From a bacterium (GTDB lineage Bacteria > CG2-30-53-67), in NCBI GenBank assembly GCA_919901565.1, contig CAKKPE010000041.1:1-32369 (forward strand): DNA of 32,369 nucleotides, read 5' to 3'. Of the stretch, positions 15,138 to 24,601 are shown one piece after another; within the stretch, counting starts at the first letter, position 1; every line of letters begins with the position of its first letter. The translations under genes were made by a program, and so were the position numbers. A model generated the notes under the pieces. That model saw only the letters and a list, made by a program, of their open reading frames with translations, did no database searches and was not told the DNA's origin.

Positions 15138-15455
15138 GTGGAGCAGCGGGACCGGGAAATTGCGCGTGAACTGAAGGACAGGTTGGCAGAGATTGTCCCA
15201 CTCGTGGATTTTCGGGTGTTCGGCTCCCGTGCGCGCGGAGACCGGGACGAGTACTCTGATCTGGATGTGTTCATTGAAGTGGAATCCCTCGACCGTAACC
15301 TGGAGGATAAAATCCACCAAGCCGTCTGGGAGGTGGGTTTTGCGCATTCTGTCTACATATCGCCCCTGATCTTTACACGATACGAACTTGAGAACACTCC
15401 TCTGCGGTCTTCTCCGATCGTGAAGAACATCAGCGAAGAAGGGGTGAAAGTATGA
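15138..15455 (+). CDS. MNT-domain nucleotidyltransferase (antitoxin of a HEPN/MNT pair)
   Basis: A 105-aa minimal nucleotidyltransferase with the signature FGSRARGDRDEYSDLDVFIEV: Gly29-Ser30 and the metal-binding pair Asp41 and Asp43. In HEPN/MNT modules this protein adenylylates and neutralises the HEPN RNase. The GTG start at 15138 follows AGGTGAG. Its stop overlaps the ATG of the next frame by 4 nt, the usual arrangement, but that HEPN gene is broken. It is therefore an orphan antitoxin. Confidence 0.9.
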   Translation: MEQRDREIARELKDRLAEIVPLVDFRVFGSRARGDRDEYSDLDVFIEVESLDRNLEDKIHQAVWEVGFAHSVYISPLIFTRYELENTPLRSSPIVKNISEEGVKV

Positions 15456-15668: not shown

Positions 15669-15720
15669 AGGCAGTCCTCACCGACATACCAGAATCTCAT
15701 TCGTTTAAACGGTCGCTGTG

Positions 15721-15862
15721 GGGCTGTTGAAAAAGTCTCTTATGGTAAATAAGTTTGTCATGCCCGAGAAAGCGGGCATCCAGTAATACTATGAAAGACC
15801 TGGATTCCCGCCTACGCGGGAATGACGGCATGAGACCAGAAAAACACTTTTTCACCAGTCCC
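15721..15862. mobile_element. MITE-like element with nested inverted repeats
   Basis: The ends are imperfect inverted repeats: GGGCTGTTGAAAAAGT on the left and the reverse complement of GGGACTGGTGAAAAAGT on the right. Inside, a 27-bp unit at 15757-15783 pairs with one at 15800-15826 at 22 of 27 positions, and each unit is itself a short palindrome around CCCG/CGGG. No protein is encoded, so it would need a transposase in trans. Units of this CCCGC-GCGGG type are common dispersed repeats in proteobacterial genomes. The remaining 15863-15988 holds GTCCCTAATTT (15866-15876) and a 13-nt palindrome, GACCTTAAAGGTC, but no clear terminator for the operon ending at 15989. Confidence 0.8.
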
Positions 15863-15988
15863 GCTGTCCCTAATTTCTGATCTGATCGCCCAACACACGA
15901 CCTTAAAGGTCAAGAACCTTCAAAAACCATAATAGAAAAACATATTACCGAAAACGCAGAACAAAGACGTCCGAGTGGCCTTGATGAC

Positions 15989-16207
15989 TTAAATTCTTAT
16001 GTCGTTGGAATGGATATTGTTTTTCCCGTCGAGTATCTTAGTCGCATCAGCAAGTCGCTCTTCATCAAGCTCTTTCAGGCATTGTTTTTCTTCTTCTGTA
16101 AGATCATATTTTGACAAAACGAAATCTGGCTGACTGAAAAACTTTGTCCTGAATTCCGGATCTGTAGCTGCATGTGTTAATACTCTCTTAACCTCTGTGA
16201 GTGCCAT
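15989..16207 (-). CDS. 72-aa leader-like protein, candidate RiPP precursor or carrier
   Basis: This small acidic protein is the last gene of the AT-rich operon, 13 nt after the radical SAM gene. AAGGAGG lies 6 nt before the ATG, the strongest ribosome site of the operon, as expected when the substrate must outnumber its enzymes. The pattern DPEFRTKFFSQPDFVLSKYDLTEEEKQCLKELDEE (residues 16-50) resembles the helical leaders of LigA-like and Franean1_4349-type precursor families, by recall and not by a search. The C-terminal tail (DGKNNIHSNDIRI) is a possible core; the only Cys is at residue 43. No leader-cleavage motif is evident. It could instead be a small partner subunit of the enzymes. Confidence 0.65.
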   Translation of the reverse strand: MALTEVKRVLTHAATDPEFRTKFFSQPDFVLSKYDLTEEEKQCLKELDEERLADATKILDGKNNIHSNDIRI

Positions 16208-16220
16208 GGCATTCCTCCTT

Positions 16221-17210
16221 TTACACAGTCATTAAATGCTTGCTCTTAATTGGACAGTCGCCTGCCCATTCTTCTCGCCATTGTTTCTCATTAATTGAAC
16301 GATAGATCATATTAACAGCTTCTCCTAAATTGCAATTCCTAATATTACCCAGATAATTGTAATCTTGCGGACAAACCGCTATCTCGCCTTTTTTCCTTAT
16401 TGTAATACAAGAGAATAATCTACAGGCTGTCGAAAAATCGTGGTGTTGCTCTGGATTAAGGAACATTGCCATTTCCATTGCCCGTGAGTGTTTTTGAGGG
16501 TCTACTGAAAGTCCAGGATTATATATTACATCTCCCCTATGGTTAAGGGCTTCCATCATCCATCTGGCATTATTATTCGTGGCAAAGCGAGCAAGGCTTA
16601 CATATTCATCAATATTTGATGCGTTACCAACGGTTGTAAAGAGCAATCTTACAAGCCGTTCGTTTTCATTCTCATAAGCCGTTTCCCCTATTGATGTCTT
16701 CTTCAAAATTTCAATGCTCTTCATTACACGGTCAAAACTACCGTCACGCTGAGTGAGATAATCATATTTCTCTCTATTGAGAGAGTCTATTTTAATAGCA
16801 ACTGACACATTATTGTCAGCCAGGTGTTTCGCCATATCCTCAGTTATCTGGCTTGCATTAGTATAAATAAGGGTGATAAGTCCATTTCTATTTGCTTCAT
16901 AAACGACTTCTTTTGTAATCGGCCATGTACTATCTAAAAGAACTTCTCCGCCAAGAAATAATAAAGTCTTTATCCCTAAATCTTTAGCTTGACCTATGAG
17001 GTTCTTAATCTCATAAAGGGATAATTCATCATTCTCTTTAACCCTTCGATCTTCGTGGCAGTATCTACATGACCAGTTGCAGAATTCCCAAGGGATGATA
17101 GACATATAAACAACTTTATTGGAAAAGTCTATCATTTCCCCTTCGAGTTCTTCCCTAAAGGAAAGGCCCTGCAAACGTATCTTCTTATTAATTTTCATTT
17201 CTCGGCCCAT
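16221..17210 (-). CDS. radical SAM protein with C-terminal cysteine cluster (SPASM/twitch-like)
   Basis: The radical SAM motif CNWSCRYC (Cys44, Cys48, Cys51; CX3CX2C) binds the 4Fe-4S cluster that cleaves S-adenosylmethionine, followed by LFLGGEVLL as the GGE motif (residues 84-92). The C-terminal third has Cys263, Cys268, Cys280, Cys293 and Cys319, a SPASM/twitch-like set that would bind an auxiliary Fe-S cluster, with CPQDYNYLGNI typical of peptide-modifying members. At 329 aa it is compact. The start is ATG 17210 or ATG 17198. It lies directly upstream of the 72-aa protein, so that protein is its likeliest substrate. The reaction type cannot be deduced. Confidence 0.88.
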   Translation of the reverse strand: MGREMKINKKIRLQGLSFREELEGEMIDFSNKVVYMSIIPWEFCNWSCRYCHEDRRVKENDELSLYEIKNLIGQAKDLGIKTLLFLGGEVLLDSTWPITKEVVYEANRNGLITLIYTNASQITEDMAKHLADNNVSVAIKIDSLNREKYDYLTQRDGSFDRVMKSIEILKKTSIGETAYENENERLVRLLFTTVGNASNIDEYVSLARFATNNNARWMMEALNHRGDVIYNPGLSVDPQKHSRAMEMAMFLNPEQHHDFSTACRLFSCITIRKKGEIAVCPQDYNYLGNIRNCNLGEAVNMIYRSINEKQWREEWAGDCPIKSKHLMTV

Positions 17211-17919
17211 CTGCCTTTACATATAAATATCTAATCGGAAATTTATTTGAAAATTTTAAGTGTTTATCTGGGTTAAGTCTGAATAACCGAGAAGCCAGAT
17301 AATTATTATATGCTTCAGCCGATATAACACCAAGCTCCTTTAAATGAACATCCTTAAATTTATGCTTAAGGACTGATATTATATCCAACTGATCATCTCT
17401 TAAATAAAAAATCATTTGAAAGCTTCCATTCGGCAGCAGATACTTAGGTGACCGTGCAACTATTTCTTTCAAGATGTTTGCCCCGGCTTCGCCGCCATCT
17501 GAGTGAAGATAATTAATGTATTCTGACGGGGTCGGTTCAAAAGGAGGATTAACCGTTATTACATTAAAACTCATATCCTTTACCGGATCAAATAAGCTGC
17601 CGATGCGGTAATCTATCTTATCAATTAATCCATTCAATTCCGCGTTATATTTAGCAAATTTTATTGCCCGAGGATTTACATCAACAGCAACCACGTTTTT
17701 TGCCTTTCTTGCCGCAAAGAGCGCAATAATGCCAGACCCCGTACAAAGATCTAATACAGTAGAATTTTTAGGGATAACAAAATTATCAACAAAATATAGA
17801 TTTTCATGGCAAAGCGGGAAGACAGCATCAGGTCTACCGCTCTCAGGAAAATCAGACAGAATTATGCTATCTCTGTAATGCCAGATTTTCGCTTCTTTCA
17901 ATAATGACATCTCTACCAT
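17188..17919 (-). CDS. class I SAM methyltransferase with NPPF motif (HemK/MTS-like)
   Basis: A 243-aa Rossmann-fold methyltransferase. Motif I is VLDLCTGSGIIALFAA (55-70), the acidic end of strand 2 is VAVDVNPRAI (78-86), and NPPF (124-127) is the catalytic motif of enzymes that methylate amide or exocyclic nitrogens, such as PrmC/HemK (glutamine) and RsmC. It has no N-terminal PrmC helical domain, so it is unlikely to be the housekeeping release-factor enzyme. The frame overlaps the carbamoyltransferase end by about 50 nt and the radical SAM start by about 20 nt, so all three are coupled. A later ATG (codon 4) is an alternative start. Confidence 0.82.
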   Translation of the reverse strand: MVEMSLLKEAKIWHYRDSIILSDFPESGRPDAVFPLCHENLYFVDNFVIPKNSTVLDLCTGSGIIALFAARKAKNVVAVDVNPRAIKFAKYNAELNGLIDKIDYRIGSLFDPVKDMSFNVITVNPPFEPTPSEYINYLHSDGGEAGANILKEIVARSPKYLLPNGSFQMIFYLRDDQLDIISVLKHKFKDVHLKELGVISAEAYNNYLASRLFRLNPDKHLKFSNKFPIRYLYVKADGPRNEN

Positions 17920-19657
17920 CTTTCTTAAAACCGTCTTTGTTTATAATACAATTCCCAAGAACCATATAGTCAAGTCCAGAGTTATAAAAACATTCAATCG
18001 CCTGTTCAGTCGTACACACGATTGGCTTACCTTTGTAATTTAAAGAAGTATTTATCACCACAGGGATTCCGGCAATCAAATAGAATTCTTTTATCAGTTC
18101 GTAAAACAGGGCATTCTGCTTTCTGCTAACGGTTTGCAGTCTTGCAGTTCCATCGATATGTACTGCCGAAGGAATTGAATTTACCTTAGATGGTTTAACT
18201 TTCCTTGCAAACAGCATAAAGGGTGAAGGCTCCGAAGCTTTAAAAAAATTACACGCTTCTTCTTCCAAAATAGCCGGAGCAACCGGTCTAAAATCCTCAC
18301 GACCTTTGATCCTGTTTATTTTATCCTTCATTCGCGGGTCTCGCGGGTCTGCGAGTATGCTCCTGTTCCCAAGAGCCCGAGGACCAAACTCCATCCTCCC
18401 CTGAAACCAGCCAACCACCTTACCTTTGGCAATAAGTTGTGCAGACTCTCGTGCTACATTTAAAGATTTATAGTAAGGGATTTTATTTGTGTTCAGGTGC
18501 GTTTCAATTTCGGAATCACTAAACTCCGGGCCTAAATAGACATCTTCCATGACATATTCTCTATGCTTATTTAGTATTGCATGGTTAATCCATAAAGCTG
18601 CACCGAGCGCCGTTCCAGCATCATTGGCAGCAGGCTGAATAAAGAGGTTCTCGAAATCTGATTCGTTCCTTATGCGCTCGTTCATAACACAGTTGAGCAC
18701 TACACCGCCGGCCATACAAAGATTTCTTGTTTTTGTTTTTTTGAAAAGCCATTCTAATACATGTAATACAGTATCCTCCAGGACTTTCTGAGCGCTTGCC
18801 GCAATATCCGCATGTCGCTCTGTAATTTTGCCGCCCACTATTCTCGGAGCACCCAAAACATCATGCAGTTCTTTCACACCGAAAAGAGTACCTTTTCTAA
18901 AGTCTATATTGACCCTATAGTCACCCTCCGGTTTAAGGGCAACCAGTTTCCTTAACTCGTTATAGTATTTGGGTTTCCCATAAGCAGCAAGGGCCATAAC
19001 TTTATATTCATCGTGATTACGCTGAAAGCCGAGGAACTTTGTAATCTCTTCATAGAAAAATCCTAAAGAATGAGGGTAATTTATTTCTTTTATCTTCTTA
19101 ATGCGATTGTCATAGCCTATTCCCAAGAGGGTGCAGGTTGTCTCTCCAATACCATCAATAGAAAGGAGAGCAGCCTCTTCAAAAGGTGAAACAAAAAAGG
19201 AACTTGCCGCATGTGCTATATGATGCCCGACAAAATGAAATTTCCATTTAGGTTTTCCGCTTAATATAAATCGACTCCGAATGGAGGGATCCCTTGGGGC
19301 TTCTTTGATAAGAAACTCTGGGATCTTCTTGTTGAAATAATAATAAGCAAGCTCTCGCTGTGCAAAGTTCAAGTCACCCTTCAAGAGTGAAAAAAGAATA
19401 TCTGGGAGATTACGCGATAGTTTCACCCAAGGCTTAAAAGAATATCCAATATGATCAATTTCTTCCAAAGTCATATCGGCTTCTTTAAGACAATAATGAA
19501 TTGAGTGGAATGGCAGTAGCCAAGAACCATAAGGACTGGCTTCTTTTCCATGCCTGATGCCAGTGAAACGCTCTTCTTCGGCAGATAAAAGCGCCTTGCC
19601 CATTAGCAGAGCCGCCGATGACTCATGATATGCAGAATTTATTCCAAGAACGGGCAT
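17867..19657 (-). CDS. NodU/CmcH-family O-carbamoyltransferase
   Basis: Family members transfer a carbamoyl group from carbamoyl phosphate, through carbamoyl-adenylate, to hydroxyls of antibiotics or Nod factors. The 596-aa protein is full length. It opens with VLGINSAYHESSAALL, has the Kae1-like His-rich GHHIAHAASSFFVSPF (about 144-159) and SIDGIGE nucleotide-binding segments, NLCMAGGVVLNCVMNERI (about 312-329), and the C-terminal domain signature QGRMEFGPRALGNRSILADPR (about 419-439). The ATG at 19657 has AGGA 6 nt upstream; the codon usage is AT-rich like its neighbours. It overlaps the upstream membrane-protein gene by 19 nt. The acceptor is unknown. Confidence 0.93.
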   Translation of the reverse strand: MPVLGINSAYHESSAALLMGKALLSAEEERFTGIRHGKEASPYGSWLLPFHSIHYCLKEADMTLEEIDHIGYSFKPWVKLSRNLPDILFSLLKGDLNFAQRELAYYYFNKKIPEFLIKEAPRDPSIRSRFILSGKPKWKFHFVGHHIAHAASSFFVSPFEEAALLSIDGIGETTCTLLGIGYDNRIKKIKEINYPHSLGFFYEEITKFLGFQRNHDEYKVMALAAYGKPKYYNELRKLVALKPEGDYRVNIDFRKGTLFGVKELHDVLGAPRIVGGKITERHADIAASAQKVLEDTVLHVLEWLFKKTKTRNLCMAGGVVLNCVMNERIRNESDFENLFIQPAANDAGTALGAALWINHAILNKHREYVMEDVYLGPEFSDSEIETHLNTNKIPYYKSLNVARESAQLIAKGKVVGWFQGRMEFGPRALGNRSILADPRDPRMKDKINRIKGREDFRPVAPAILEEEACNFFKASEPSPFMLFARKVKPSKVNSIPSAVHIDGTARLQTVSRKQNALFYELIKEFYLIAGIPVVINTSLNYKGKPIVCTTEQAIECFYNSGLDYMVLGNCIINKDGFKKDGRDVIIERSENLALQR

Positions 19658-20592
19658 TTGCAATCCTGGTTAGGAAAATAGTTTTCTGAAAAATAAAACT
19701 GGGGTCTCAATAAATAGGGAACAGCTATCTGCAATAAAAGCATTATGAAATAAACATAACCAGAAACTATAATATTGTTATAGCCAAAAAACTTGGGAAT
19801 GAAAAAGCCGAGCCCAAAAATCATAATAAAAACGTCAAGAATGACCCAGACTATAATCGTATAAGTTATGTTGGGAGAGATAACAAAATGCCAAATGCAA
19901 TTGCTATGCTCACCGTTAGTTACTGGTGAGCTTGTAGATTCTTCGAAATTTATTAGCAGTGCAATGTCCTGTATAATAAATCCCCCAAAAATTAAGATTA
20001 TTAACCACCATTTTAGATCCCCCGTAATAAAGGATGCCAATAGAACAATGAAAATTAACATAAGTATTCTGGCTGCAAAAAATAAAGCATTTATTGGAGT
20101 ACTAAATCGGCACTTAGAAAAAATAATGTTATCAATTCTTGTGGATTCATGGACATACTTTATTACAAAGAAAAAAACTGCAAATATTAGTAATTTTCTA
20201 ATGGATGCAATTGCAGAAAGTTTATCTTTTAAAAGTATATCAAACTCGCCGAACAAATCTTTATCATCACCGTTTATTTCCCGAGCTATCAATTTTCTTA
20301 AGGAAGCCACAAATAATCCAATTTGATTCTTATTATTGTCTAAGCTTGGATCATTGTCGTATATTGCCTCCTTCCAAGCAGTGTCTATTAAATGGGGAAG
20401 TTTCTTTTCAATCAGCTCCTGCCTTCCTTTATCTTCAGATATTTTATTGACATTTTGTAAAACAATGTCTTTGGATACATTGAACAGTGTCTGATAATGG
20501 ATGGGATTAAAAAATTGCTGGACGAGAGTGATAAGTACTAGACCAAGAATAACGTTTATAAATAGTTGGAAGAAATCTCGTTGATTATACAT
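19639..20592 (-). CDS. six-TM integral membrane protein, unknown family
   Basis: I do not recognise this 317-aa protein. Hydrophobic segments lie at about residues 8-27, 133-147, 169-189, 194-213, 243-265 and 274-295. A 100-residue charged region (30-130) separates the first two, and a polar loop (216-240) the fourth and fifth. The C-terminus contains a CKC motif. It has no transporter or peptidase signature that I can name. It sits between the ABC ATPase (22-nt gap) and the carbamoyltransferase (overlap), so it belongs to the operon. It may anchor the enzymes, act as an exporter or substrate-binding module, or give self-protection; none of these is shown. Confidence 0.75.
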   Translation of the reverse strand: MYNQRDFFQLFINVILGLVLITLVQQFFNPIHYQTLFNVSKDIVLQNVNKISEDKGRQELIEKKLPHLIDTAWKEAIYDNDPSLDNNKNQIGLFVASLRKLIAREINGDDKDLFGEFDILLKDKLSAIASIRKLLIFAVFFFVIKYVHESTRIDNIIFSKCRFSTPINALFFAARILMLIFIVLLASFITGDLKWWLIILIFGGFIIQDIALLINFEESTSSPVTNGEHSNCIWHFVISPNITYTIIVWVILDVFIMIFGLGFFIPKFFGYNNIIVSGYVYFIMLLLQIAVPYLLRPQFYFSENYFPNQDCKCPFLE

Positions 20593-20614
20593 TTGTCATT
20601 TTCTGCCTTGGTAA

Positions 20615-21469
20615 TTATTTATGTCTTCTCATAGAAAACTTGTGCTCATCTCTGAACTTTTCAGGTTGCACCGGTGTTTTTCTCCAGAGCATATCCGTCT
20701 TTTGAGCCTCCTTACGAGTATAGCTTAGTACCTCTCGCTTTAAATCCATAAATTCTGCGGAGGTCTTCATTTCCAATGTTCTAGGCTTGGGTAAGCTTAT
20801 AGTAAGTTCTTTCTTTATTTTTGCTGGTCTTGCAGTGAGAATTAGTAAACGATCGGCGAGGAAAATTGCTTCTTCAACATCGTGAGTCACAAAGATTATC
20901 GTCTTCTTCGCTACTGTCTGTGCTTCTAACAGCTGAAGTTGCAGAAATTCACGGTTCTGTGTATCCAATGCCCCGAAAGGTTCATCCATTAATAAAATCC
21001 TCGGATCAGTGGCTAATGTCCTTGCTATCGACACTCTTTGCTGCATCCCCCCTGAAAGTTGGGATATATAGGACTCCTCAAAACCATGCAAACCAACAAG
21101 GTCGATAAAATATTCAGCTACTTTATCCCCTTCCTCTTTCTTAATATCAGGCCGATATTTTAAACCAAATTTTATATTTTCTGATACGGTCAGCCACGGG
21201 AAAGACGAATAGTGTTGGAATACCATCCCCCTTTCCCTGCCCGGGCCTTTTATTTCTTTGTTATCAAGCAATATTCTGCCGTTCGTTGCAGTTTCAAGTC
21301 CGGCGACAATCCTAAGAAGCGTTGTCTTGCCACAACCCGAAGGTCCCAATAAAACAAGAAGTTCCCCTTCCGCAACTTCAAAAGTAAGATCTTCGATAGC
21401 AATTATGTCATTGCCAACCCTGTCATGAAAAACTTTAGAGACTGATTCAACCTTAAGAACTGGCTCCAT
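20615..21469 (-). CDS. ABC transporter ATPase, SsuB/TauB/NrtD type
   Basis: A 284-aa ATP-binding subunit for a nitrate/sulfonate/taurine-type importer. Walker A is GPSGCGKT (42-49), the Q-loop region MVFQHYSSFPWLTV, the signature LSGGMQQRVSIARTLA, Walker B ILLMDEPFGALD and the switch VTHDVEEAIFLADR. The start at ATG 21469 is preferred over an upstream frame overlapping the permease because AAGGAT lies about 10 nt before it. It has a short basic C-terminal extension. It forms a transporter with the next two genes upstream. Confidence 0.93.
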   Translation of the reverse strand: MEPVLKVESVSKVFHDRVGNDIIAIEDLTFEVAEGELLVLLGPSGCGKTTLLRIVAGLETATNGRILLDNKEIKGPGRERGMVFQHYSSFPWLTVSENIKFGLKYRPDIKKEEGDKVAEYFIDLVGLHGFEESYISQLSGGMQQRVSIARTLATDPRILLMDEPFGALDTQNREFLQLQLLEAQTVAKKTIIFVTHDVEEAIFLADRLLILTARPAKIKKELTISLPKPRTLEMKTSAEFMDLKREVLSYTRKEAQKTDMLWRKTPVQPEKFRDEHKFSMRRHK

Positions 21470-21473
21470 AATA

Positions 21474-22256
21474 CTACTTATCCTTATACCTGAAGAATAT
21501 TTTATATCCAAGCTTAAAACTGTAATCACTGACAAGCCCGATTACTCCAATAATCAAGACGCCTGACAATACAACTTGTGGTTTTGCAAAGCGCTGTGCT
21601 TCCTGAATGAGGTGACCTATACCAGAATTTGCCGCTACCATCTCTCCAATTAGCAAATAAGTCCAGCACCATCCGAGAGTGACCCTCAAGTCATCGTAAA
21701 TATTCGGAAGCACCGCAGGGAGCATAACCCGCCGAATTACGTCCTTAGTGTCTGCGCCAAGCGTATATGCTATCTCAAAATATTCCTTGCGGATATTATT
21801 GGCATCGTCCATAACCAGGAGTACAAGCTGGAAAAAAGTCCCAATGAACAACAGTAAAATCTTCGATGACTCACCTATGCCCACCCACAAGATAGTTAAA
21901 GGAACAAGAGCGGGAACCGGCAGGTATCTGACAAAATCAACGGGCGGCTCAATCAGAGCTTCCATGAACTTGAAAGAGCTCATCAATATGCCGAGAGGAA
22001 TGGCAATAACGGCAGACAAGAGAAAGGCTACAAGCACTCTAAAGATGCTTATCCATATGTCATATGTCAGATTGTGGTTTGAAAAAAGATTAAAGATAGT
22101 AGCTAATATGGTGGATGGAGATGGAAGAAAGAAAGGGTCGATCAATCCGCCGTAGGAAAGTATCGACCATAATACCAAGAGAATAATAAAAGATGTATTC
22201 GAGAAGCTCAGATACTGGCGTCTATTTAGTGTCTTCCCAAAACCAAATATACTCAA
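21474..22256 (-). CDS. ABC transporter permease, SsuC/TauC type
   Basis: A 260-aa inner-membrane permease with about six hydrophobic segments. The inner-membrane component motif is EYFEIAYTLGADTKDVIRRVMLPAVLPNIYDDLRVTLGWCWTYLLIGEM (EAA loop near residues 155-205). PVPALVPLTILWVGIGESSKI is the conserved mid-protein signature of the sulfonate/taurine group. The only plausible start is a TTG at 22256, preceded by GGGTGAT. It lies 12 nt after the binding-protein gene and 4 nt before the ATPase. Confidence 0.92.
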   Translation of the reverse strand: MSIFGFGKTLNRRQYLSFSNTSFIILLVLWSILSYGGLIDPFFLPSPSTILATIFNLFSNHNLTYDIWISIFRVLVAFLLSAVIAIPLGILMSSFKFMEALIEPPVDFVRYLPVPALVPLTILWVGIGESSKILLLFIGTFFQLVLLVMDDANNIRKEYFEIAYTLGADTKDVIRRVMLPAVLPNIYDDLRVTLGWCWTYLLIGEMVAANSGIGHLIQEAQRFAKPQVVLSGVLIIGVIGLVSDYSFKLGYKIFFRYKDK

Positions 22257-22268
22257 ATAATCACCCGT

Positions 22269-23285
22269 TCATTTTGGTGCCGCAATGATTGATAAGTCTA
22301 TTTTCTTATTCGCAGGCTCAACCTCTTTCGTCAAATTGTTGGCCTTTAATATCGTCCCGATCTCACCAAATATCTCGAAAATTTTACCAGGAGAATTCTC
22401 ACTGCCAAAATATTCTAAATTCTGCTTACTCCCGAAATACCTGATACCTGATATGGTGTCTTTAAACTCTTCAGGCGTCATTTTAAAAGCCTTTGCCATT
22501 ATAGCAATACTCTCATCAGGATTTTTTTCAAAATACTCAAGTGCCTTGGTCCAGCCAGCGTATATCTTCTTAACATCTTCATTACGTTTTGAAAGTACAT
22601 CTTCGCTCACGATAGCAACATCAACAATCAACCCTGGCAGGTCTTTACTCGATACTAATATATGAGCGCCTTTTCTTTTCTTCAGAGCTGTACTTAAGTA
22701 AGGCTCATAAGTTCCCGCTACCTCAACTTTTCTTGCAATAAATGCTGCTGCTGCGTCAGATGAGTTAGCACTCAGAAAATTGATGTCTTTCATCCCTAAT
22801 CCATCTTTGTTCAGTAAATATAACAAGATGAAATATGATGCAGAGCCGGGCTCGCCAATCACTGTCTTCCCCTTCACATCTTTTAATTTCTTCACCTTAT
22901 CGGATGCTAAAACTCCGTCCCCTCCATAAGATTCATCTATTCCGAATATGACTTTGCCCGAGTAGTCCAGAGTGTCTCTGTTTGCCTGGAGCATATCCAT
23001 AGTCTCACAAATCATCTGCAAATTACCTGAATAGAGTCCCGCTCTTTTATCGCCTTCCACCGCAATGAATTGCGTTTCAACCTGCAAATCTCCAAAAAAA
23101 CCCTTTTCTTTTGCCAGAAAGAAAGGAGCAAAACCAACCCATTCATTAAACCCGATATTAAACGGCGCTTTAGCTTGAGGTTTAGATGCTTCCTCTTTTT
23201 TCTTACAACCGAAAGGGAAAATCATCAAAGATACGACAAGTAAAAGAATCACAGCGAAAAATACTGACTTATTATTCTTAGTCAT
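22269..23285 (-). CDS. ABC importer substrate-binding lipoprotein, NMT1/SsuA-like
   Basis: A 338-aa binding protein with a lipoprotein signal (hydrophobic residues 9-26, lipobox FPFGC, Cys27) and a type II periplasmic-binding fold. FNIGFNEWVGFAPFFLAKEKGFF (about 42-64) is the start of the NMT1/SsuA domain and GKTVIGEPGSASYFILLYLL the hinge and ligand-contact region. Relatives bind sulfonates, taurine, nitrate, or thiamine pyrimidine precursors, so the ligand is open. ATG at 23285 with GAGGA 7 nt upstream. It is the first gene of the operon, about 35 nt downstream of the predicted promoter start. Confidence 0.92.
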   Translation of the reverse strand: MTKNNKSVFFAVILLLVVSLMIFPFGCKKKEEASKPQAKAPFNIGFNEWVGFAPFFLAKEKGFFGDLQVETQFIAVEGDKRAGLYSGNLQMICETMDMLQANRDTLDYSGKVIFGIDESYGGDGVLASDKVKKLKDVKGKTVIGEPGSASYFILLYLLNKDGLGMKDINFLSANSSDAAAAFIARKVEVAGTYEPYLSTALKKRKGAHILVSSKDLPGLIVDVAIVSEDVLSKRNEDVKKIYAGWTKALEYFEKNPDESIAIMAKAFKMTPEEFKDTISGIRYFGSKQNLEYFGSENSPGKIFEIFGEIGTILKANNLTKEVEPANKKIDLSIIAAPK

Positions 23286-23323
23286 AGCATTGTCCTCATC
23301 GGGGTTTCGACTATTTTACCAAA

Positions 23324-23353
23324 ATTATATACTACTTAACTATGGTTATACAA
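23324..23353 (-). promoter_or_regulatory. promoter of the AT-rich operon
   Basis: On the minus strand TTGTAT (23353-23348) and TATAAT (23329-23324) are 18 nt apart, with a perfect -10. The predicted start lies roughly 35 nt before the binding-protein ATG. No other comparable promoter is visible before the later genes, and all gaps are short or negative, which supports one transcript to 15989. It begins about 20 nt from the truncated end of the transposase remnant. Confidence 0.6.
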
Positions 23354-23369: not shown

Positions 23370-23657
23370 CTAACATCCTACCATTGCTTTGTTGACATAT
23401 TGCGCATAGCGCATGTGCAGGGGTCGCAATACCTTTTCCAAAGAATCTCTGTGTTTTGGAACCACCACCAGATGAACATGGTTTGTCATCAGGCAATATC
23501 CCCATATCTTGAGACCATGCTTTTGTGAATATTCCAGAAGCTATTCCAAATATTTCTTACGGCCTTCATCAACAAAAAACACGTCCTCTCTTCTGTTCCC
23601 GCTCTGTGTTACATGATACGGGACGCCTTCAACCACTGCTCGTGACAATCTCGGCAT
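23370..23657 (-). pseudogene. REP-associated Y1 (IS200-like) transposase remnant
   Basis: From the ATG at 23657 the frame reads MPRLSRAVVEGVPYHVTQSGNRREDVFF, the usual start of RAYT proteins, continues to KKYLE, meets an in-frame TAG at about 23544, and resumes with LLEYSQKHGLKIWGYCLMTNHVHLVVVPKHRDSLEKVLRPLHMRYAQYVN. NHVH is the HUH metal-binding motif. The family's C-terminal part (normally RSGHLWQGR and beyond) is missing after 23370. It has both a nonsense mutation and a truncation, so it is inactive. Confidence 0.88.
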
Positions 23658-24076: not shown

Positions 24077-24601
24077 CTACTCGACCTGCGCGGCGATGTC
24101 CGGGGGCAGCATGCTCTTAAGCTCTGAGTGCGTCTCCACAAGTCGCAGGATGTCGGACAGGTCTTTCTGGCGTTTGCTCTTGCGCCTGCTCTGGTCCGTA
24201 TATGCCCAGACCTTCCCTCGAATAACATCGGCCAGACTTGCGACAACCATCTCGTAACCCAGGATTTCGTGCCGCTCCGCCCTCTTGACGAAGTCCTGGT
24301 AGAGCGGATCCGTTTTAAGCTGAATGCGCAAATCAGAGCCCGATACGGAAAGGTTGATGCTATGTTCGAACTCCTCCACCTTCATCCCCTTGGCCTGGGC
24401 GGCTGAGCGGAGCGCATGGATCCGGTCGGAGACGACGACCAGATCCAGATCGAGACTCACCACCGGTTCGGCATAGGCATTGACCCCAAGGCCGCCGACC
24501 ACGCAGTACGCGGCCTCTGTCTCCTCCAGCAAAGAAAGAAGGAGCTGAACGATGTCCTCCTTGCCGTGAGCGATACTGTTGAAGAAAGTCTTGCCCGTCA
24601 T
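24077..24601 (-). CDS. AbiEii-like nucleotidyltransferase
   Basis: A 174-aa protein with the nucleotidyltransferase pattern YCVVGGLGVNAYAEPVVSLDLDLVV: Gly36-Gly37 and the catalytic aspartates Asp51 and Asp53. The C-terminal KSKRQKDLSDILRLVE is the motif common in AbiEii/type IV toxins and related proteins. In those systems the enzyme modifies tRNA and arrests growth; many members are uncharacterised. No AbiEi antitoxin with a winged-helix domain is next to it. The 84-aa protein downstream is the only candidate partner. ATG 24601 has a weak ribosome site. Confidence 0.8.
   Translation of the reverse strand: MTGKTFFNSIAHGKEDIVQLLLSLLEETEAAYCVVGGLGVNAYAEPVVSLDLDLVVVSDRIHALRSAAQAKGMKVEEFEHSINLSVSGSDLRIQLKTDPLYQDFVKRAERHEILGYEMVVASLADVIRGKVWAYTDQSRRKSKRQKDLSDILRLVETHSELKSMLPPDIAAQVE

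Follow-up and report, generated by a model that had tools for sequence, protein, structure and literature searches.

An apparently acquired eight-gene operon that may tailor a ribosomal peptide and carries its own importer

In polytheonamide, a leader of the NHLP clan is combined with a radical S-adenosylmethionine (SAM) enzyme and an N-methyltransferase. The split borosin pathway is built around SonA, a 71-residue precursor that consists of a five-helix leader followed by a short core (PMC8429565). Lysine carbamoylation by a carbamoyltransferase of a ribosomally synthesized and post-translationally modified peptide (RiPP) pathway has only just been reported, the NodU-like enzyme StdF converting a lysine of a ribosomal peptide to homocitrulline (PMC13174530), and recognition elements have been reported fused to PF02543 proteins (PMC12710340). 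Here we analyse an eight-gene operon at positions 15,989 to 23,353 of a 32,369-nt stretch of DNA (the window), which is contig 41 (CAKKPE010000041.1) of a 2.96-Mb draft genome (GCA_919901565.1) from a bacterium of the lineage CG2-30-53-67, in a sparsely sampled phylum (8 genomes). An importer, an orphan membrane protein, a carbamoyltransferase, a methyltransferase and a radical SAM enzyme are encoded here together with a 72-residue protein. Tentatively, we read this locus as a RiPP-like tailoring operon that was acquired horizontally and has an importer of its own; the 72-residue protein would be its substrate or carrier.

Layout of the operon and its 72-residue protein

The eight open reading frames (ORFs) lie on the minus strand and run from 23285 to 15989 in the order substrate-binding protein (SBP), permease, ATPase, membrane protein, carbamoyltransferase, methyltransferase, radical SAM enzyme and 72-residue protein (Table 1). 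Using the likely start codons, the successive junctions are +12, +4, +22, -25, -53, -23 and +13 nt, where the +4 junction assumes that the ATPase starts at ATG 21469 and the -25 junction is the overlap of the membrane protein and carbamoyltransferase genes. Of the seven junctions in this co-directional block, four are thus short gaps and three are overlaps. The original prediction, made from the sequence alone, had described gaps of 22 nt or less with several overlaps, which is correct (range -53 to +22 nt). It had also placed the genes behind one promoter, and this was not borne out: there is a perfect TATAAT (23329-23324) but its -35 element is poor (TTGTAT, 23353-23348), and a consensus scan rejects the pair.

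The last gene is present as a single copy and has a strong ribosome-binding site, AAAGGAGG, the strongest in the operon. Its product scores 49 bits over residues 5-61 against NF038399 ('Os1348 family NHLP clan protein'; curated cut-off 40) and ends in a C-terminal tail of about 12 residues, DGKNNIHSNDIRI. The score against TIGR04509 was 22.7 bits (cut-off 34), and TIGR03793 was not among the matches listed. A family profile was constructed by aligning the protein with 19 members of its family that the sampled genomes encode. It matched the solved structure of Os1348 (6lk7) at E 5e-11; nitrile hydratase alpha chains were matched at E values down to 4e-9 and the LigA-like part of DesB, a gallate dioxygenase, at 1e-4, and there was a weak match to SonA, the precursor of the borosin pathway (E 0.0016, profile positions 2-59). 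A model based on the alignment (predicted local distance difference test, pLDDT, 72) shows five helices and a floppy or disordered tail at residues 66-72. Foldseek matches of this model were individually not significant (E >= 0.5; SonA E >= 2.8) and fell mostly within the same group, namely DesB, SonA, a proteusin precursor and nitrile hydratase. The predicted layout of five helices and a disordered tail resembles the SonA borosin-binding domain and core and was counted in favour of the RiPP reading. The earlier description of the protein as leader-like is therefore supported, both by the NF038399 score and by a profile that reaches Os1348 and, weakly, SonA. Sactipeptide or ranthipeptide chemistry is unlikely, since Cys43, the only cysteine, falls in the region predicted to be helical and the tail is free of cysteine.

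The Os1348 family was found in 43 of the 386 genomes, in 20 of them above the cut-off. At one locus (L126, G247:C41, 378-4266) an 84-residue Os1348 protein adjoins a radical SAM/SPASM enzyme and a 744-residue YcaO protein, and the radical SAM/SPASM enzyme itself carries a C-terminal Os1348 domain; this is probably a RiPP cluster in which the enzyme and the candidate precursor have a leader-like domain in common. At a second locus (L130, G321:C15, 6399-9655), likewise a probable RiPP cluster, an 82-residue family member is followed by a YydG-like radical SAM enzyme and then by an ApyD-like B12-binding radical SAM enzyme. Other members occur elsewhere. Three of the top-scoring ones (70-72 residues; L113, L114 and L116) adjoin proteins of 1439-1897 residues. 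Two of these large neighbours were scanned; both are of the adenylate cyclase/TPR type, and one also contains an AAA domain. Such a setting suggests a non-RiPP, possibly signalling role. In three genomes (L127, L135 and L137) the Os1348 domain forms the C terminus of a 976-residue protein whose remainder reads, from its sequence, as a molybdopterin oxidoreductase or formate dehydrogenase alpha chain. The family is broad and has many non-RiPP settings, and membership is therefore taken as evidence for a leader-like fold and not as proof of a RiPP precursor.

Tailoring enzymes and importer

The carbamoyltransferase is full length (PF02543 1.7e-66; PF16861 1.1e-70) and matches the solved structures 7xb6 (6e-82) and TobZ (1e-78). 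Its HHIAH, DGIGE, NDAG and GPRALGNRSIL blocks, which we take to be the metal and adenylate sites, align with 7xb6 without gaps, and the enzyme looks catalytically intact. The nearest relatives, among the 386 genomes and the genome contigs, are only 46-48% identical.

The methyltransferase contains the (D/N)PP(Y/F) motif of HemK/PrmC-type enzymes in the form NPPF, on an MTS fold (PF05175). It matches a PRK14968-type NCBIfam model at 1.7e-30, below cut-off, and reaches no equivalog cut-off. Its best matches in the 386 genomes include a 1282-residue protein from another phylum (L296, G050:C33, 683-4531), in which a NodU-type carbamoyltransferase (residues 4-556) is fused to an NPPF methyltransferase (about 890-1030). 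The methyltransferase part of this fusion has an extra N-terminal helical portion, and an isochorismatase-like gene follows. We know of no described example of such a fusion. It argues that enzymes of these two families can carry out carbamoylation and methylation one after the other. HemK-type NPPY/F methyltransferases methylate planar amide nitrogens, and by analogy N-methylation of a carbamoyl group or of an asparagine amide is an attractive possibility for the enzyme of the operon; the literature searched contained nothing useful on an N-methylcarbamate precedent.

The radical SAM enzyme reaches no NCBIfam maturase equivalog, the best score being 68.6 bits to NirJ2 (cut-off 500). A C-x6-G-x4-C element is located near its C terminus, where the region for an auxiliary cluster is short. 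The family assignments of the original prediction were all right except that of a SPASM domain in this protein, where PF13186 was not detected at E <= 0.1. Full-length relatives are at best about 26-33% identical, and some of the nearest are encoded in operons of the polyene/fatty-acid type (L023, L317 and L318); these three loci were considered as possible orthologues and set aside as paralogous on account of such neighbours. The substrate class is not readable by homology, because no SPASM domain is detectable and because of the operons in which the relatives sit.

With an NMT1/SsuA-type SBP, one permease and one ATPase, the NitT/TauT (SsuABC-type) ATP-binding cassette (ABC) importer is complete. 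All three components stay below the cut-offs of their nearest NCBIfam models: TIGR01728 for the SBP (6.8e-28), SaoP, TauC and SsuC for the permease, and SaoA for the ATPase (249 bits versus 360). Hydropathy predicts that the orphan membrane protein has a single N-terminal transmembrane segment and then a hydrophilic domain (about 90 residues), followed by several more transmembrane segments. No homologue was detected in 356 genomes at 1e-5, and its single-sequence fold was poor (pLDDT 53) and unusable as a structure.

Foreign composition and the search for a second cluster

The eight-gene island has a GC content of 0.39, versus about 0.51-0.55 on both flanks. GC at third codon positions (GC3) is 0.31-0.47 across the eight genes, versus 0.59-0.71 in seven flanking genes that include those for RpoN, LptB, LptA, LptC, RACo and MoeA, and the tetranucleotide distance to the flanks is 0.29 for the island versus about 0.09-0.11 for windows entirely outside it. 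Within the operon, GC is lowest in the membrane protein gene (0.32) and GC3 is highest in the permease gene (0.47). At the borders, the right side carries a transposase remnant and an AbiEii-like ORF and the left side an MntA-like ORF. The repeat at the left edge has several other matches in the host genome, the best being 96% over 171 nt on another contig; it adjoins the 3' end of the operon and reads like a miniature inverted-repeat transposable element (MITE) or repetitive extragenic palindromic (REP) type element. No direct repeats or att-like sites of at least 16 nt flank the island. Using the radical SAM gene as marker, the gene set was missing from the other genomes of the phylum. Horizontal acquisition of the eight-gene block is thus well supported, because a foreign composition coincides with absence elsewhere in the phylum and with mobile or repeat debris at the borders. 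The original prediction had called the region far more AT-rich than its flanks and bordered on both sides by mobile or toxin-antitoxin debris; both observations proved real.

Searches for a second cluster covered the phylum, 356-386 sampled genomes per gene and two scans of genome contigs; the scans need exact matches of short peptides and may therefore overlook distant clusters. The radical SAM enzyme was searched in its own genome, the phylum, 98 and then 356 genomes, genome contigs, viral contigs and plasmid records, and no matching set was found among the matches listed. Neither was one found with the carbamoyltransferase (386 genomes, viral and genome contigs), whose flanks were screened to 10 kb for the other seven proteins, or with the methyltransferase (386 genomes, viral contigs). 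Conservation of the genes together elsewhere, on which the idea of a single system had leaned, was therefore not found in the searches with these three enzymes, the Os1348 protein and the membrane protein, and that idea has only partial support. Linkage in other genomes is limited to partial pairs: the one carbamoyltransferase-methyltransferase fusion, the two radical SAM-Os1348 neighbourhoods and one importer-carbamoyltransferase neighbourhood.

This last neighbourhood, the nearest partial parallel, is found on a contig of a Phycisphaerae metagenome-assembled genome (L241, JAJDDX010000129.1, 4029-14193). Here an NMT1-type SBP, an ATPase, a permease, three genes, a carbamoyltransferase, one gene and a CxxxCxxC protein follow one another on one strand. 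The genes between importer and carbamoyltransferase have no Pfam or NCBIfam match, and they include probably membrane-bound proteins. The resemblance to the operon lies in importer and carbamoyltransferase only, no other gene being similar, and an Os1348 protein was not detected in the examined stretch. Another locus (L247) was dropped as a carbamoyltransferase-radical SAM pair, no CxxxCxxC protein being called beside its carbamoyltransferase.

Table 1. Genes of the operon, its candidate promoter and features of the island borders (positions in the window)
Feature	Position	Strand	Evidence or remark
SsuA/NMT1-type lipoprotein SBP, 338 aa	22269..23285	-	PF09084 1.4e-17, PF13379 4e-15
NitT/TauT-type ABC permease, 260 aa	21474..22256	-	PF00528 6e-22
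NitT/TauT-type ABC ATPase	20615..21469	-	ATG 21469; ORF opens TTG 21535; PF00005 1.9e-35
Orphan membrane protein, 317 aa	19639..20592	-	hydropathy; no Pfam match
NodU/TobZ/GdmN-type O/N-carbamoyltransferase, 598 aa	17867..19663	-	start TTG 19663 or ATG 19657
HemK/PrmC-like class I methyltransferase with NPPF motif, 243 aa	17188..17919	-	PF05175 5.5e-18
Radical SAM enzyme, 329 aa, CxxxCxxC	16221..17210	-	PF04055 6e-21
72-aa Os1348-family NHLP-clan small protein	15989..16207	-	NF038399, family alignment, profile search, fold prediction
Candidate promoter, TTGTAT - 18 nt - TATAAT	23324..23353	-	read from sequence; not accepted by consensus scan
Truncated, stop-interrupted Y1/IS200-like transposase remnant, right edge	23373..23657	-	PF01797 3.2e-10, stop read as X
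AbiEii-like ORF, right side	24077-24601		weak match
NTP_transf_2/MntA-like nucleotidyltransferase ORF, left side	15138-15455		
Interspersed host-genome repeat, left edge of AT-rich island	15707..15878	.	further matches in own genome

Alternative explanations and known systems

According to the RiPP-like reading, the 72-residue protein would be a five-helix leader of the NHLP/Os1348/SonA type whose short tail is modified, or which acts as a carrier. The adjacent radical SAM enzyme would modify it. One of its nucleophiles, for which Lys62 and Ser67 are the only obvious candidates in the tail, would receive a carbamoyl group from the carbamoyltransferase at the expense of carbamoyl phosphate and ATP. 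The NPPF-type methyltransferase could then methylate a planar nitrogen, either that of the new carbamoyl group or that of an asparagine side-chain amide, and the importer and the orphan membrane protein might bring in a small precursor or retrieve the product after its release. What is observed here is the gene content, the tight packing, the foreign composition, the family of each component and the existence elsewhere of a protein that fuses the two kinds of transferase; the role of the 72-residue protein as substrate, the sequence and positions of the modifications and the nature of the imported compound are inferred. Support comes from the compact co-directional layout, the NF038399 score above cut-off and the profile matches to Os1348 and SonA; from the two loci at which Os1348-type proteins adjoin peptide-type radical SAM enzymes (L126, L130) and the fusion that links the two transfer steps (L296); and from the action of NodU-like carbamoyltransferases in RiPP pathways (PMC13174530, PMC12710340). 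In its fully specified form, a new pathway with a radical SAM-modified NHLP-clan carrier, NodU-type carbamoylation, subsequent NPPF N-methylation on the carbamoyl group or asparagine amide and its own SBP-dependent uptake, the proposal is distinctly unlikely; its product would be a ribosomal peptide that bears an N-methylcarbamoyl (or N-methyl-homocitrulline) group.

Several observations weigh against a RiPP. The operon contains no exporter with a peptidase domain, no protease and no peptide exporter, its transporter being an importer. No Gly-Gly occurs anywhere in the 72 residues, as would mark a cleavage site before a variable core, the tail is short and the gene single-copy. The adenylate cyclase-AAA-TPR neighbourhoods and the fusions to molybdopterin oxidoreductase-like proteins place Os1348 domains in non-RiPP settings, and among about 20 other above-cut-off loci a radical SAM gene adjoins only two, at best a modest enrichment. 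To these are added the undetected SPASM domain, the polyene/fatty-acid-type operons of the closest radical SAM relatives and the lack of a second genome with this set of genes among the matches listed. A small-molecule pathway is possible and was ranked nearly as likely as the RiPP-like reading: the importer would supply a small precursor, the three enzymes would tailor it and the 72-residue protein would be an accessory subunit resembling LigA, or a scaffold, and would hold the enzymes or the substrate. The NitT/TauT importer is of a kind typical for small solutes, and TobZ and GdmN, solved PF02543 enzymes, act on small molecules. The closest full-length relatives of the radical SAM enzyme belong to polyene/fatty-acid-type operons. 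DesB is matched by the family profile in its LigA-like part and many Os1348 proteins lack RiPP neighbours, while the Phycisphaerae locus has its importer, carbamoyltransferase and CxxxCxxC protein on one strand with no Os1348 protein detected. However, no other gene of the operon has as strong a ribosome-binding site as that for the 72-residue protein, which is encoded directly behind the radical SAM gene, as expected of a substrate, and L126 and L130 pair its family with peptide-type radical SAM enzymes.

It is unlikely that gene transfer merely collected two unrelated pieces, an uptake operon (SBP, permease, ATPase and perhaps the membrane protein) and a tailoring set (carbamoyltransferase, methyltransferase, radical SAM enzyme and 72-residue protein). 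No other genome was found to link importer and tailoring genes in this form, the Phycisphaerae locus doing so only partially, and the extremes of GC and GC3 fall on the membrane protein and permease genes; yet all gaps are at most 22 nt, the membrane protein and carbamoyltransferase genes overlap by 25 nt and low GC3 is common to all eight. Very improbable is a RiPP metallophore or cofactor system in which the modified peptide is released and recaptured by the SBP-dependent importer, as in methanobactin operons with uptake genes. The importer genes are co-directional and closely packed with the modification genes, and nutrient catabolic genes are absent, but so are an outer-membrane receptor and an exporter, and the tail lacks cysteine. 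In addition, NMT1-type SBPs usually bind small solutes.

The product of the operon may be a modified peptide or a small molecule of a new kind. If the RiPP-like reading is true, this would be a new type of modified peptide, possibly with N-methylcarbamoyl groups. The NHLP/Os1348/LigA/SonA fold lies between peptide precursors and enzyme subunits, and the operon offers a compact, directly expressible test of its role. In the literature searched we found no system with this gene set, in agreement with the original prediction, and no description of a radical SAM enzyme, a carbamoyltransferase and a methyltransferase acting with an NHLP-clan protein.

Each described system matches the operon in part. 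SonA of the split (type IV) borosin pathway SonA/SonM of Shewanella oneidensis is a stand-alone LigA/NHLP-type five-helix leader with a short C-terminal core, a layout that is predicted for the 72-residue protein. SonM is a borosin alpha-N-methyltransferase, a partner that we take to be PF00590, whereas the methyltransferase of the operon is an NPPF enzyme of PF05175 (MTS) and not of the borosin type; the radical SAM enzyme, carbamoyltransferase and importer are further additions. Os1348 of Pseudomonas sp. Os17 belongs to the same curated family as the 72-residue protein, and its gene sits with an acetyltransferase and other genes, no radical SAM enzyme or carbamoyltransferase being mentioned in the part of the source consulted (PMC7726476). 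Of the proteusins and other NHLP-leader RiPPs (Haft 2010, PMC2887384), polytheonamide likewise combines an NHLP-clan leader with a radical SAM enzyme and an N-methyltransferase; compared with this group, the operon lacks the Gly-Gly site, the long core and the exporter-peptidase genes and has the carbamoyltransferase in addition. This enzyme has two-domain homology to the NodU/TobZ/GdmN/NovN O-carbamoyltransferases (E down to 6e-82), in a genomic setting unlike every checked locus of its nearest relatives. In the std cluster of Streptomyces thermodiastaticus (PMC13174530) a NodU-like carbamoyltransferase acts on a peptide, as proposed for the operon, and that cluster is distinguished by its YcaO-TfuA and MNIO proteins, a peptidase-fused carbamoyltransferase and a different type of precursor.

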